Assembly (NCBI GenBank): GCA_017883385.1
Contig: JADGNQ010000001.1
Location: 124,001 to 188,000 of the forward strand
Source: Candidatus Sulfotelmatobacter sp.
GTDB lineage: Bacteria > Acidobacteriota > Terriglobia > Terriglobales > Acidobacteriaceae
DNA: 64,000 nucleotides
Direction of reading: 5' to 3'
This document shows positions 39,935 through 45,118 of the stretch, piece after piece. Within the stretch, counting starts at the first letter, position 1, and each line of letters begins with the position of its first letter. The notes under the pieces are model-generated. The model worked only from the letters and a program-made list of their open reading frames with translations. It did no database searches and had not been told where the DNA came from. The position numbers and the translations under genes are program-made.

Positions 39935-41218
39935 TTATCGCTTGTTCATTTCTTCTCGTGTAAAGGGACCGCCCGACTGAACTCCATCGAGGGTCTTCAT
40001 AAGTTTATCGTAGTCACCGACTCGCCCGCAGCACGGCCCCGGCGGAATCGGCGCTCCATGCGGACAGGTCCGCGGATGCCCCAGAAACGCGCAGATCTTG
40101 TCGGTGGCTTCCGGCGACAGAATATGCTCGAACTTGCAGGCTTGCTGCTCGATTTCAGTCTCGCTGTCCATCGCTAAGCTGTCAGTGAAAAGCCGCTCGG
40201 CCAGCCGGTGCCGCCGGATAATGTTGCCCGCCCGCTCGCGCCCCCGCGGCGTCAGCTCGACAATCAGGGTACCGTCACCCGAAGACGCAGCCACCGGTTT
40301 CAGCGCCTCGTGACAAGGATTCACAAACGGCTTGTGATCATGCGGCTGGGGTGGGTGCGGAGCCGATACCACCAGCTCCATCTCGATCATCTTTTCAATG
40401 GCCAGGCTGACCGGGAGCGCCCCATGAACCTCCATCCGCTCGACTTCAGCGATCTCTCCATGCTCGGCCAGCACCCACAATTCCTCGAGGACTTCGTCCA
40501 GTTGCTCCTCGTCGGCCAGGGAGAAGATCTCCTGCGACGCGATCTTGCCATGGTGCAACTCAATCCGCCGGTCCGCGAGCCGCGCCACCACCGGATCGTG
40601 CGTGACCATCACGATAGTGCGCCCTTGCTGGTGAAACTCCCGCAGCAACCGCAGCACGATCTCCTCGTTCTGCCCGTCAAGATTCCCGGTCGGCTCGTCC
40701 GCCAGGATGATTCGGGGATCGTTAATCAGAGCCCGCGCGATGCACACCCGCTGTTGTTCTCCCCCGGAAAGCTGCGATGGCAGGTGATGGGCGCGATCGC
40801 CCAGCCCCACGCGCGTAAGGGCTTCCACTGCTTCCTTCTCGTCCGTCATGCTGTGAAAATACTGCGCCAGCATGATGTTCTCGACTGCGGTCAAAAACGG
40901 AATCAAATGAAACTGCTGAAAGATAAAGCCGATTTTTTCCGCGCGTACCCGGTTCAGCTCTGCCGCGGCGATTCCGGCCACATTCTGCCCATCGAGCCAG
41001 ATCTCGCCCGAGGAAGGCTGATCCAGGCACCCAATCAGATTAACCAACGTCGATTTCCCCGATCCCGACGGGCCCATGATCGACAGCCATTCCCCTTGCG
41101 TCACGTGCAGCGAGATGTGGTCGAGAGCATGAATCGAGCTGTTATCCTTGCCCGATCCATTCCCGTTTCCCGCTTCCTTGGCGGGGTAGAGCTTCGTCAC
41201 ATCCTTGATCTGAATCAT
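39935..41218 (-). CDS. ABC transporter ATPase fused to a DtxR-like metal-sensor module
   Basis: 427 residues. Residues 1-225 are a LolD/MacB-type ATPase: Walker [10 protein letters not shown] (49-57), Q-loop FQQF, signature LSGGEQQR (150-157), Walker B IILADEP (170-176), H-loop THD. Residues 238-392 match a whole DtxR/MntR repressor. A winged-helix-like segment (238-285) comes first, then a His/Cys-rich insert ([13 protein letters not shown], 286-303), then the dimerisation/metal domain with RRHRLAER (H337, E341), QACKFEH (C361, E364, H365) and CPHGAPIP (385-392). These are the DtxR primary and ancillary metal ligands; DtxR Met10 aligns to Glu. It probably gates transport by bound Fe/Mn, or doubles as a regulator. 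It is the last gene of the iron operon. Confidence 0.9.
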
Positions 41219-41219
41219 T

Positions 41220-42488
41220 TCACTCGCCCCTCAGAATAACCGCCGGTTGCACCCGCCGCAGCAGCGAGATCGGGAGGATCGCCGACAACAAAGTAACCGC
41301 CATGCTACCAGCCAAAACCACCGGTAGCACACTCAAACGCGGAACCACCGGAGCGTGAAAGTTCACGCGCCCGATCCAGGCCGCAATGCCGATCCCGACA
41401 AGGAATCCGATGAGAGCGCCAGCCGCACCTAGGACTGCGGCCTCGGCTGCAAAGAAGCCGTTCAGCAATCGCCCCGACGCGCCCAGTGCTTTCATGATCG
41501 CGAAATCGCGTCGCCGATCGAATACCCATCCCATCAACGTCGATAGCACGCACAACGCCGCGGTCAGGATGATCAACGCAGCAGCGGCCAGCAGCGTCGC
41601 GCGCGTCTTGCCCAGCACGCGCGCCTCGCCTTCCATAATCTGCCGTACCGGACGAACATCGCCAGCCGGAATCGCCTGTGTCAGTTGGCTCATGATGCTG
41701 GCAACTTCCTCGGGCGACCCGCTCGCAGCCACTTCAATCGTCGTCGGCTGAACCCCAGTCCACGCCACGAAGTCGCCCAGCGAGATATAAATGCGGCTGT
41801 CTTCGGCGGCCCCGGTCTGCACCGTGCCCGCAGGCGCAACCTGCAAGGTTCGTCCCTGAAAACTGAGATCAAACGCCTGCCCCTTCGGCGCCACCGTCGC
41901 CAACGCCCGCACGCCGATCAACGCCGGGTGCCCCATCCTTGTCGCGTCTTGTGCGACAGAGCCTGCCCTGAGCGGAGCGAAGGGGTGGGGATTTTGATTT
42001 TCAGAAGGAATCGGATTTCCAGATTGATTTGCTGAAGAGGAAGAATTCAACGGCCAACTGCTCACCGACCACCACTTATCCAACTGCCGCACGCGCTCAA
42101 ACTCTGTACCGGCCACCACGATCGCTTGGCCGTCTCCAGTTCGCGCCACGACCATTCCAAAAGGAGCCGCAATGCCGCGGCCTGCCAGAACGTAATCTAC
42201 GTGAGAGAGCGCATCCGAGGGCAGGGAAGTACCGTCTCTCCCAACGAGAATAATATTCGCACCATAGTTCCGAAACTCCCGCCGCAACTTCGCCTGCACG
42301 TCCACATAAAGATTCAGCATTGCCGTGGCCACCGCCGCAGCCACCACCATGGCGAACAGTGCGGATGCGGCACGCCCCCGCCGCAGAATCGCCGCCCGCA
42401 CCAGCATGCGCAGAAACATCGAAGTGTGCGGGCCATGGGCCCGGCTGGCCGCCAGGTCTCGTGCCGAGTGTGACATGGGCGCGCTCAC
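41220..42488 (-). CDS. FtsX/MacB-type ABC permease (iron operon, permease 2)
   Basis: 422 residues: one N-terminal membrane helix (about 40-62), a periplasmic domain, then three C-terminal helices with the FtsX signature (MGWVFDRRRDFAIMKALGAS). It starts within a four-base overlap with the first permease and ends one base before the ATPase start. A stretch of about 40 residues (about 146-187, SSSANQSGNPIPSENQNPHP then FAPLRAGSVAQDATRMGHP) is low-complexity and unlike the paralogous permease. Its DNA (41926-41985) resembles dispersed intergenic repeat sequence, inserted in frame. It is one half of the MacB-like permease pair handled by the fused ATPase. Confidence 0.85.
   Translation of the reverse strand: MSAPMSHSARDLAASRAHGPHTSMFLRMLVRAAILRRGRAASALFAMVVAAAVATAMLNLYVDVQAKLRREFRNYGANIILVGRDGTSLPSDALSHVDYVLAGRGIAAPFGMVVARTGDGQAIVVAGTEFERVRQLDKWWSVSSWPLNSSSSANQSGNPIPSENQNPHPFAPLRAGSVAQDATRMGHPALIGVRALATVAPKGQAFDLSFQGRTLQVAPAGTVQTGAAEDSRIYISLGDFVAWTGVQPTTIEVAASGSPEEVASIMSQLTQAIPAGDVRPVRQIMEGEARVLGKTRATLLAAAALIILTAALCVLSTLMGWVFDRRRDFAIMKALGASGRLLNGFFAAEAAVLGAAGALIGFLVGIGIAAWIGRVNFHAPVVPRLSVLPVVLAGSMAVTLLSAILPISLLRRVQPAVILRGE
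41926..41985. repeat. Repeat-like insert inside the permease gene
   Basis: Starts GGGTGCCCCAT (shared with the hairpin inside uvrA at 51330), contains the small hairpin TGTCGC-GTCTTGT-GCGACA, and ends CCTGAGCGGAGCGAAGGGG, which resembles the TGTCATTCTGAGCG repeat family. It is read through in frame. Confidence 0.55.
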
Positions 42489-43750
42489 AGTTCGCCCCGC
42501 AACGCAAACACCGGATCTAGCCCAACCGCGCGCCGGATGGCTGCCGCGCTCCCCGCGAACGTCACCGCCACGGCAATCGCCAGGATCACCGGCAGCAGCA
42601 CAGGCTGAATCGAAATCTCCGAATTAAAGATCGAGTGCCCAATCTGGTGGGCGAGCCCAGATCCGACCACGAAGCCGACCAAGCCACCGATCAATGCCAG
42701 TAGCGTAGCTTCAGCGAAGAATATCGAGGCAATGGCGAGCTTTCCCGCGCCCAGAGCCTTCATCAGTCCAACCTCGGCACGCCGTTCAAAGATGGTAGTG
42801 GCCATGGCGGCCGATACCGCCAGGGCCGACGCAAACAGCGCGGCCAAGGTGATCAAGAAAATGAGCCCTTCGATGCGCGTGAGCACGGCGCCCTCGTTTT
42901 GAGAGACCTGACGCACCTGTTCGGCATGCGAATGGGGAATCGCCTCGGCCAACTGAAACGCAATCGACTGTGGATAAGGCGTGCAATACCACCGATCATA
43001 GATCGCGCCCGATAAGCTCTTGGGATCGCGGCGCCCGAACGCGTCCTCAGGCTTGGTCAGCGCACTGACATAAACCCGCCGAACCGCCCCCGGTCTGCCC
43101 AGAATCTCTTGCGCGAGAGCGAGAGGGGCCACGACCTCATCGTCTTCCGCCCCGCCGGTCGAGAGAATCCCGCTCACTCGCAGCTGGCGGCCCGCAAGCA
43201 TGATTACATCTCCGGACTTCTCGTCCAAACGGCTGGCCAGCCTCTCCCCCAGCAAAACGTCCCGCGAAGAATCCTCTGGCCACGCGCCGGAAACGTGCCA
43301 CCACGGATGTGTGGTGCGCACCCCGGTGGCGAACTCGTCCGTGCCGAAGGCAACCTTCTTCGCAAAATAAGTCCCCAGCATCATCACGTCCTGCCGCTTC
43401 CCGTGATGCTCGATCGCCACGCTAACCGGAAGCATCGGCGCAAACCCTGTGATGTTGTTATGCCAGAAAATCCCTTTGATCTTGGGTAGGTCGGCTTCGC
43501 TGAGAAAAGCCCCGTCCGTCGGAGGCTTGAGGTTGATGCCCCCAATTTCCACGTCGAGCGAATCTTCCTGCGGGGTCACTACCAGGTTGGCGCCAATGGT
43601 GCGCAGTTCGCGATTAATCTTGTCGCCGATATCCGTCGCCACGGCAATCATCGCCGTCGCCACGGTCACGCCCAGAGTAATGGCCGCGCCCGCCAGCAGC
43701 TTGCGCCGCTTCTGGCGCCGGAAGGATTCGTAAACGAGTCGGACGAACAT
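42485..43750 (-). CDS. FtsX/MacB-type ABC permease (iron operon, permease 1)
   Basis: 421 residues: N-terminal helix (about 18-40, LLAGAAITLGVTVATAMIAV), a large periplasmic MacB-like domain (about 45-280), then three helices with the FtsX consensus (RRAEVGLMKALGAGKLAIAS). It starts 3 nt after the FTR1-fusion stop and overlaps the next permease by four bases. It corresponds to one of the Cj1661/Cj1662-type permeases of the Campylobacter iron locus. The periplasmic domain may receive iron or electrons from the FTR1/DUF2318 protein; that is inference. Confidence 0.9.
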   Translation of the reverse strand: MFVRLVYESFRRQKRRKLLAGAAITLGVTVATAMIAVATDIGDKINRELRTIGANLVVTPQEDSLDVEIGGINLKPPTDGAFLSEADLPKIKGIFWHNNITGFAPMLPVSVAIEHHGKRQDVMMLGTYFAKKVAFGTDEFATGVRTTHPWWHVSGAWPEDSSRDVLLGERLASRLDEKSGDVIMLAGRQLRVSGILSTGGAEDDEVVAPLALAQEILGRPGAVRRVYVSALTKPEDAFGRRDPKSLSGAIYDRWYCTPYPQSIAFQLAEAIPHSHAEQVRQVSQNEGAVLTRIEGLIFLITLAALFASALAVSAAMATTIFERRAEVGLMKALGAGKLAIASIFFAEATLLALIGGLVGFVVGSGLAHQIGHSIFNSEISIQPVLLPVILAIAVAVTFAGSAAAIRRAVGLDPVFALRGEL

Positions 43751-43753
43751 GGC

Positions 43754-45004
43754 TTACTGTTGCGCGAACATACGGCCACCGGCCGCAACGTCCGCCTCCT
43801 CGATGATGACCGCATCCGCTGTCTGCGTGGCCTTCAGCGGTACCGGATTGCAGCCGCCCGCCGTCCCCACCGATTGCGGATTGATGGGCGCCGCGCAATT
43901 CTTGCAGATTACGCCGTTTCCGCTCTTGTAAAACCCGACCGATCCGCAAATCTCGCAGGCGTCGAACACGGTAGCGATCTTCCCATCAGGCTTTTGATAC
44001 AGCCAGAAGCGAACTGCAGTCCCGTTCTCCTGCGCCTGGAAGCGGTGCAGGTCTCCACCAGAAAGCTCCGTCAGCGGAATACTCACGCGCCCGTTCGTAA
44101 ACGTCACCTCAGTCGCGGGCGAGAGAGCGCTCACACCCTTGGTATAGATAAATTCCGCCGTCACCAGCGCGATAAACACAAACGAGAACGTGTATACCGA
44201 AACCATCCACATGCGCTCGCGGCGGGCGCTCCACGCGGCCTTGCGGCGCTCGGCAGCAGAAGCGGAGGCGGGCGCAGGCTCGCGTCGCTTGGCGTCAAAC
44301 AGCACCATCAGCGCCGCCAGCGCAAAAATAGTCACAAAGAAGAACCAGTCGTTGCTGACGATCGGCCCAATGATCGCCATTTCCCGCTTGGAGGAGGCAA
44401 TGAAGCCGCTCTCCGAAAGTTCATGTAGCCCGGAGATCACCAACTGCGCCGCCACCAGAAACATGATCGCGGTCGTGACCCGGAAGAACTTCTGCAGGTT
44501 GATGCGCACGCTGCCCTTGACGAACATCACCCCAAAGGCGATGGCGGACAGCACGCCCAGCAGTGTCCCCAGAAAACTCATCAGTTCGGTCGAGTTCAAC
44601 GACACGGCGGAAAGAATCAGCACGGTCTCCGCCCCTTCCCGCAACACCATCAAAAAGATGAAGACGAACAGCCCAAACCACGCGTCGTTGCCCGCCAGCA
44701 GCCCGACCTTGCCCTCAATGTCTCCCTTCAGCTTGCGCCCCGTCTTCATCATGAAAATAACCATGGTGATAACGAAGAAGGCGGCCACAAGCATGACCCA
44801 GCCTTCGAACACGTCTTCGTTCAGATGAGTGCGGGAGATGACGACAGCGACGCCAATACTGCCGAGGAACGCAGCCGCCAGCGCCGCGTACACGGTCTTG
44901 CGCAGTTCTTGCCGCCCGATCTTGGTCAGATACGCCAGGGTGATGCCGACGATGAGCGCCGCTTCAACCCCTTCCCGGAGCGTAATGATGAAAGCCTGAA
45001 GCAT
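43754..45004 (-). CDS. FTR1 iron permease fused to a DUF2318 Fe-S-type domain
   Basis: 416 residues. The N-terminal part (1-235) is an FTR1/EfeU-type permease with seven predicted helices and both iron-binding REGxE motifs: REGVE (10-14) and REGAE (122-126). A basic loop and an eighth helix (about 266-287) lead to a C-terminal periplasmic domain (about 295-395). This carries CEICGSVGF, VICKNCAAP and GGCNPVPL (Cys 350, 353, 367, 370, 385), the signature of the DUF2318 family. In Campylobacter these are two separate genes (Cj1658 and Cj1660). It is the first gene of the operon, downstream of a Fur-box-like site. No P19 gene is present. Confidence 0.92.
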   Translation of the reverse strand: MLQAFIITLREGVEAALIVGITLAYLTKIGRQELRKTVYAALAAAFLGSIGVAVVISRTHLNEDVFEGWVMLVAAFFVITMVIFMMKTGRKLKGDIEGKVGLLAGNDAWFGLFVFIFLMVLREGAETVLILSAVSLNSTELMSFLGTLLGVLSAIAFGVMFVKGSVRINLQKFFRVTTAIMFLVAAQLVISGLHELSESGFIASSKREMAIIGPIVSNDWFFFVTIFALAALMVLFDAKRREPAPASASAAERRKAAWSARRERMWMVSVYTFSFVFIALVTAEFIYTKGVSALSPATEVTFTNGRVSIPLTELSGGDLHRFQAQENGTAVRFWLYQKPDGKIATVFDACEICGSVGFYKSGNGVICKNCAAPINPQSVGTAGGCNPVPLKATQTADAVIIEEADVAAGGRMFAQQ

Positions 45005-45025
45005 TGAAGGAGTGCCTTTTGATTA

Positions 45026-45040
45026 TGAAAATGAATTTCA
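45026..45040 (-). promoter_or_regulatory. Fur-box-like operator of the iron operon
   Basis: TGAAATTCATTTTCA on the minus strand fits the 7-1-7 Fur box (TGATAAT-N-ATTATCA) at 11 of 14 positions. The AT-rich tract extends over 45021-45047. It lies immediately downstream of the -10, where a repressor would block RNA polymerase. Confidence 0.6.
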
Positions 45041-45052
45041 ATTTCAACTTCA

Positions 45053-45082
45053 AGGATAGTCCCGCCCCGCCAAACCCGTCAA
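45053..45082 (-). promoter_or_regulatory. Sigma-70-like promoter of the iron operon
   Basis: Minus strand: -35 TTGACG (45077-45082), 18-nt GC-rich spacer, -10 TATCCT (45053-45058). It is about 50 nt before the ATG at 45004. Confidence 0.6.
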
Positions 45083-45102
45083 TCCACTGCCTCACAACCG
45101 CA

Positions 45103-45118
45103 TGTGATTAGGATCACG
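45103..45118 (-). promoter_or_regulatory. CRP-like palindrome upstream of the iron operon
   Basis: TGTGATTAGGATCACG (plus-strand reading) fits TGTGA-N6-TCAC and resembles the site before citrate synthase. It is centred about 64 nt before the expected transcription start, a classical activator distance. Confidence 0.5.

Follow-up and report, generated by a model that had tools for sequence, protein, structure and literature searches.

A compact FetM/FetABCD-type iron-transport operon in an acidobacterium, with a DtxR-derived metal module on its ABC ATPase

Introduction

The closest described relatives of the operon studied here are the FetMP-FetABCDEF systems of Campylobacter jejuni (Cj1658-Cj1663) and of enterobacterial plasmids. 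In C. jejuni, fetMP-fetABCDEF has a Fur box upstream, and the first six genes, those for FTR1 and P19 included, are constant in order and length in 33 species (PMC6083913). C. jejuni strains deleted for fetA, fetB, fetC or fetD grow less well when iron is low, and what FetBCD does is described as unclear in that work (PMC10783030). Here we describe a four-gene operon in a 64,000-nucleotide stretch of DNA from Candidatus Sulfotelmatobacter sp. (assembly GCA_017883385.1, contig JADGNQ010000001.1, forward-strand positions 124,001 to 188,000; "the window", whose numbering is used throughout unless another contig is named). Its genes for FTR1, DUF2318, two FtsX-type permeases and an ATP-binding cassette (ABC) ATPase stand in the same core order as in the Fet systems; Cj1658-Cj1663 had been named for comparison in an earlier reading of the DNA by a model (hereafter, the original prediction).

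The operon differs from the Fet systems in having FTR1 and DUF2318 as a single protein, in a four-gene operon without a P19, YHS or thioredoxin part, and in an ATPase that bears a DtxR-derived domain, whereas Salmonella FetD has 231 residues. The Salmonella plasmid copy has the same arrangement, and over 207 residues its FetD shares 59% identity with the ATPase part of the protein described here; PF02742, the DtxR-derived domain in question, is not among the matches listed for it (25 of 30). We considered whether the membrane part of FetA might be a degenerate FTR1. The relationship of FetA to the FTR1-DUF2318 protein is clearest in DUF2318: neither Salmonella nor Pasteurella FetA matched the FTR1 profile PF03239, alignments by pairwise BLASTP were confined to DUF2318 with a short preceding stretch, and a profile comparison spanned most of both proteins with a probability of 99.9, the convincing part again being DUF2318. 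By its gene content and order, the operon is a compact FetM/FetABCD variant without P19, with the FTR1-DUF2318 fusion and the putative sensor on the ATPase as further differences.

Other described systems share single aspects of this architecture. MetNI and ModABC have a regulatory domain at the C-terminus of the nucleotide-binding subunit, and there the domains bind the transported nutrient, dimerise and block transporter cycling (PMC10710835). The putative regulatory fold in the window ATPase is instead of the DtxR type, and the FtsX-type ABC part is probably an aid to FTR1 and not itself the iron carrier. The DtxR, IdeR and MntR metalloregulators share the dimerisation/metal-binding fold and the ligand positions with the fused module, which differs from them in lacking a recognisable DNA-binding domain and a match to the SH3/FeoA domain, in having four extra cysteines, and in being joined to an ATPase. 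Lastly, the MacB, LolCDE and FtsEX (type VII) machines likewise combine an ATPase with FtsX-family permeases, and we know of no member with a DtxR-type module.

Results

The last gene of the operon (39935-41218, minus strand) encodes a protein of 427 residues in which an ABC ATPase domain (PF00005, residues 32-177, E = 3.3e-36) is followed by Fe_dep_repr_C (PF02742, residues 323-392, E = 1e-26). PF02742 is present in all 15 fused proteins compared, and in a PDB search with a profile of 15 diverse C-termini, IdeR/DtxR chains match at 1e-21. An AlphaFold2 model of the window C-terminus, made with 51 relatives, has a predicted local distance difference test score (pLDDT) of 82 and a predicted template-modelling score (pTM) of 0.74; its top Foldseek matches are IdeR and DtxR (best E 1.9e-7), and VIA-align places it on DtxR/IdeR with Z 16.9 and a root-mean-square deviation of 2.0 over 133 residues. 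Profile matches and modelled fold together indicate that the C-terminus of the ATPase is a DtxR-derived metal module. Among the NCBIfam matches listed (25 of 194), no model spans the ATPase-DtxR fusion, and the ATPase matches stop by residue 245.

The metal-binding/dimerisation module proper comprises residues 323-397 (40028-40252, minus strand). With the ligands of DtxR and MntR numbered as we take them to be (Glu83, Cys102, Glu105, His106, His79, His98 and Met10/Asp8), E341, C361, E364 and H365 are the equivalents of Glu83, Cys102, Glu105 and His106, and these four, like the downstream motif C376..H381..C385PH387..C396C397, are invariant in 15/15 fused proteins. At residue 242, the Met10/Asp8 position, 12 of the 15 have Glu, two Asp and one His, as read off the alignment. 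From the kept ligand positions we infer that the module binds metal. Across seven comparisons the ratio of nonsynonymous to synonymous substitution rates (dN/dS) of residues 323-397 is 0.008-0.04, with many dS values above 1, and in six of the seven it falls below the value for the ATPase domain; estimated in this way, the module is under strong purifying selection. We rejected a chance or assembly fusion, since the architecture is conserved in several families and dN/dS is low.

The original prediction had described a DtxR-like module on the ATPase and had proposed a profile search of the 39935-41218 product for both PF01325 and PF02742. The second half of the DtxR pair was recovered, the first was not. 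PF01325, the DtxR DNA-binding domain, has no match in the window ATPase or in any of the 15 fused proteins, and the control of canonical acidobacterial DtxRs matched in 20 of 20 cases; a complete DtxR regulator on the ATPase was rejected on this result. Residues 234-322 (40253-40519, minus strand) instead form helix 1 and a diverged winged-helix region. We compared it with that of the canonical proteins and of 21 of the closest stand-alone relatives, most of them encoded beside FeoB (20 of 48 intermediate-score places and one Pelobacter propionicus plasmid protein found with tblastn). Six unfused ATPases were excluded from two of the alignments. The recognition-helix pattern occurs in 18 of the 20 canonical proteins, which were hand-picked from matches spanning the helix-turn-helix plus the genome's own DtxR, a choice that favours a conserved helix-turn-helix, and in 0/21 FeoB-linked and 0/15 fused proteins. 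Over the stretch from helix 1 to the wing, net charge averages +2.6 in the canonical, -5.0 in the FeoB-linked and -3.3 in the fused set, and identity in helices 2-3 is 0.47, 0.19 and 0.28, respectively. Thus, as far as these profiles and alignments tell, the module falls short of a complete DtxR, its DNA-binding signature is gone, and DNA binding by it is unlikely. Loss of the signature makes a post-translational switch more plausible. An insert at residues 286-318 (40265-40363) contains Cys and His, with H288, C302 and H303 invariant in 52 close sequences; it is restricted to close relatives, being missing in 11 of 15 diverse rows, and is possibly a further metal site.

Loss of the signature and gain of cysteines are common to the fused module and its FeoB-linked siblings (L182-L202), divergent DtxR-FeoA proteins that have the same C..H..CPH..CC motif and differ in being stand-alone, in carrying a FeoA domain and in adjoining FeoB. 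The extra cysteines C376, C385, C396 and C397 are present in 15/15 fused proteins and in 21, 20, 21 and 21 of the 21 siblings; in the canonical DtxRs these positions are Cys in 1, 2, 0 and 1 of 20. Identity over the C-terminal motif is 0.53 in canonical, 0.64 in FeoB-linked and 0.71 in fused proteins. All 21 siblings combine Fe_dep_repr_C with FeoA, and no SH3/FeoA match was found in the fused proteins. FeoB-encoding DNA adjoins the sibling gene on the same strand at 19 of the 21 loci; none was found near it at the other two (L188 and L195). FeoA contacts the G-domain of FeoB in a FeoAB fusion from Bacteroides fragilis, and it stabilises the GTP-bound form (PMC8980893). This contact, together with the position of the siblings beside FeoB, makes regulation at the level of the transporter plausible as a shared role. 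Probably, then, one divergent, DNA-free iron sensor accompanies two unrelated nucleoside triphosphate-driven iron importers. A bolder version, which we hold tentatively and at somewhat less than even odds, is that a DtxR-derived sensor class no longer acting on DNA gates iron importers, in cis on the FTR1/Fet ATPase and in trans, via FeoA, on FeoB, possibly with an iron-sulphur (Fe-S) cluster on the four cysteines.

The arrangement is conserved in relatives, as the original prediction required. We chose 20 loci from the matches of a protein search of 199 genomes of the phylum, a search that mainly counts ordinary ABC ATPases; the module is on the ATPase in 14 of them, and all 14 are ordered FTR1-DUF2318, permease, permease, ATPase. 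The full order in intact open reading frames (ORFs) was also found in 57 of the best 80 of 561 contig-scan loci, the remaining 23 apparently being mostly cut by contig ends or having a gene split in ORF calling. All of these best 80 loci are from Acidobacteriota, the nearest named relatives being Candidatus Sulfotelmatobacter and other Acidobacteriota. From the genus of the window, 12 further genomes were searched, and eight have a PF02742 match within a frame of 415-425 residues. When 396 acidobacterial genomes were searched with the module profile, 22 matched at E<=1.3e-58 and from profile position 1, and the next match (3.4e-49) starts at profile position 20. The fusion was confirmed in each of the 15 of these 22 genomes that were opened, and all 22 fall within the 74 of 396 genomes that have DUF2318 (hypergeometric 5e-18, kinship ignored). 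In a tree of ATPase domains, four unfused sequences from another genus of the same family are nested among fused ones (92/87), with weak support for the deeper forks, and this position is consistent with loss of the module. At one locus (L044, genome G005), DUF2318 and FTR1 are in separate ORFs and the ATPase is unfused; this genome has a FeoB-linked sensor elsewhere. A search of plasmids with the module alone gave, among the matches listed (40 of 60), 38 annotated regulators and two unannotated proteins. We found no paper in open-licence PubMed Central that recognisably describes an ABC-DtxR fusion, judging mostly from listings and with one query ill-formed.

A Fur-box-like palindrome, GAAATTGAAATTCATTTTC, lies upstream of the operon (45027-45045, minus strand), its first base 41 bp 5' of the FTR1 ATG and within the roughly 110 bp of upstream DNA that the range given in the original prediction takes in (end 45118). 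Scored against the E. coli Fur consensus as we take it to be, at least 13 of 19 positions match within 200 bp in 51 of 70 operons, compared with about 1.2% of 3,500 shuffles; the 70 rows are related, and two of them (L032 and L102) are apparently one operon from two collections. The carriers are the window, 47 of 52 contig-scan operons and 3 of 17 more distant ones. In the window's genome, GAAAWTGAAWTTCAWTTTC has three exact matches and two with two mismatches, and the reversed control has none. Of the exact sites, one is that of this operon, a second precedes an ORF with a FUR domain (E 4e-29) by about 35 bp, and the third is directly before a 288-residue ORF (L237, 1501-1519; G000:C2:176668-176686), where the site is identical to the window's. 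The 288-residue ORF starts in the manner of a signal peptide and matches nothing in Pfam; judged by eye, it is similar to an outer-membrane beta-barrel, and it may be a partner of the operon.

The original prediction had left the direction of transport between import and export. Because the operon and a fur-family gene have the Fur-type, operator-like site in common, the evidence favours an iron-repressed importer, and we set the exporter aside on this site. Import is also the direction to which Campylobacter genetics, by analogy, points. The genome, which is about 97% complete, gave a single FTR1 match and nothing that is clearly FeoB: FeoB_N matches at best at 4.4e-16, in a frame with two G-domain matches. 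The suggestion that the system works without P19 agrees with the genome, where PF10634 has no match; at this completeness neither absence is proof, and the PF10634 search was positive in 1 of 14 control genomes.

The four genes, all on the minus strand, occupy 45004-43754, 43750-42485, 42488-41220 and 41218-39935; from one gene to the next the spacing is +3, -4 and +1 bases, exactly as had been noted before. The first (43754-45004) encodes the FTR1-DUF2318 fusion of 416 residues, an iron permease with a Cys-rich, FtrD-like domain, and profile matches (PF03239, 1.2e-36; PF10080, 1.1e-29) uphold the previous assignment of its motifs. The FTR1 part has two REGxE motifs, REGVE and REGAE, and the DUF2318 cysteines are C350, C353, C367, C370 and C385; RExxE-type residues and cysteines are invariant in an alignment of 19 rows. 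At another locus (L036, 10176-11669), the FTR1-DUF2318 protein has an additional C-terminal Cys-containing segment that by eye is YHS-like, as in enterobacterial FetA.

Both permeases, predicted to be of the FtsX type, do match PF02687. Permease 1 (42485-43750, minus strand, 421 residues) is FtsX/MacB-type and FetB-like (PF02687, 1.4e-14; MacB_PCD, PF12704, 4.3e-14). Permease 2 (41220-42488, minus strand), FtsX-type and FetC-like, has 422 residues counted from a GTG, with start codons further downstream also possible (PF02687, 1.6e-15). It contains an in-frame insertion of about 35 residues (41905-42060), missing in five of seven aligned relatives and shorter in two, that resembles read-through of an interspersed repeat; a second copy was not found in the window. 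The ATPase is closest to MacB/LolD profiles and is near such structure chains too, and its Walker A, LSGGE, DEPTG and H-loop motifs are invariant in 15/15 fused proteins. FtsX-domain permeases together with a LolD/MacB-like ATPase are what marks MacB/Lol/FtsEX-type ABC machines, and the operon encodes both.

Discussion

We propose that the operon encodes a Fur-repressed importer, a compact four-gene form of FetM/FetABCD, whose ATPase is trans-inhibited via metal-bound DtxR-derived domains, and we put the probability of this reading at about 0.55. Since type VII ABC machines act mechanically in the cell envelope, we assign iron transport to FTR1 and ATP-driven assistance to the ABC part. FTR1 would carry iron over the inner membrane, with the tethered Cys-rich DUF2318 domain presumably outside, and the two FtsX-type permeases and the ATPase would form a MacB/Lol-like machine that spends ATP on periplasmic work that FTR1 needs. 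Each ATPase would bear a DtxR-derived domain that has probably ceased to bind DNA. Once ferrous iron from the cytosol occupies the DtxR-type site, both such domains of one transporter would pair and keep the nucleotide-binding domains apart, such that ATP use stops; this would be trans-inhibition as in MetNI and ModABC, with a metal-repressor fold. That dimerisation occurs within the transporter, and that it inhibits rather than activates, we infer by analogy with those systems.

Several observations weigh against this proposal. The winged-helix region is conserved within close relatives (G266, L268, P269 and A273 are invariant in 52 rows), its dN/dS is 0.02-0.08 where computable, and in the model it superposes on the DtxR winged helix despite the loss of PF01325; given this conservation, low dN/dS and kept fold, it must have some role. 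Not all ligand positions of DtxR are kept: the His79 position (H337) is occupied by His in 11 fused proteins and by Gln in the other 4 of the 15, and residue 357, at the His98 position, is Glu in 13 of 15, where canonical proteins carry His. The model of the full-length ATPase is weak (pTM 0.49, with pLDDT below 50 for residues 216-235), and the domain arrangement is not readable from it. The Fur-type site was found in just 3 of 17 operons of a more distant set. Lastly, the ATPases of six of the 20 chosen loci (the four from the same-family genus and two others) have no module, which is therefore dispensable.

The strongest rival, unlikely as we judge it, is that the module responds to a different signal or has the reverse effect, its cysteines holding an Fe-S cluster or zinc and the transporter being stabilised or activated under redox or oxygen control. 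FeoC, a winged helix, is the precedent for such a role beside FeoB. It carries an Fe-S cluster and shields FeoB from FtsH (PMC10710835), and the near-universal presence of the four cysteines in fused and FeoB-linked proteins, their rarity in canonical ones, and the siblings' position beside FeoB would all suit a comparable function. However, the classical DtxR ligand positions are retained as well, the cluster is only hypothetical here, and the FeoC profile PF09012 has no match at E<=0.01 among fused or FeoB-linked proteins. It is less probable again that the module is no regulator and serves as a cytoplasmic acceptor or buffer for iron leaving the transporter. Its position on the cytoplasmic side, the conserved ligand positions and the Cys/His-containing insert of close relatives could be so explained, but the FtsX-type ABC machine is probably off the iron path, a simple buffer would have no need of the retained dimerisation-domain core, and most diverse members do without the insert.

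We consider it improbable that the module is a structural relic, serving just to dimerise the ATPase and having no metal role. Its loss or absence at some loci, and the placing of unfused ATPases among fused ones in the tree, would be expected of a relic, whereas the invariant positions include its ligand and cysteine residues and its dN/dS is mostly below that of the ATPase domain. More doubtful still is a fusion protein that remains a transcription factor and represses its own operon from the membrane: to its DtxR ancestry and the winged helix conserved among close relatives may be added that the FeoB-linked siblings retain a FeoA/SH3 domain like canonical DtxRs and that two of the 21 have weak PF01325 matches (best E 0.0027), but in the fused proteins PF01325 and the recognition-helix pattern are absent and the region is acidic, and the operon has a Fur-type site. 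An iron exporter is very improbable. FtsX-type ABC machines such as MacB do serve efflux; against this stand the operator common to the operon and a fur-family gene, the finding of FTR1 alone, with no clear FeoB match, in the genome, and the role in iron acquisition described for the homologous C. jejuni genes (PMC10783030; PMC6083913).

How FtsX-type ABC genes assist iron import by FTR1 is left open in the C. jejuni work (PMC10783030). The natural fusions described here join FTR1 with DUF2318 and link the ATPase with iron sensing, and make both questions testable. If the proposed trans-inhibition is correct, two unrelated iron importers would have come to be gated by a classical repressor fold, and the annotation labels "regulator" or "ATPase" would mask this level of control. 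Our analysis suggests that an iron pump in a soil acidobacterium, and in many of its relatives, may itself sense intracellular iron and shut off.

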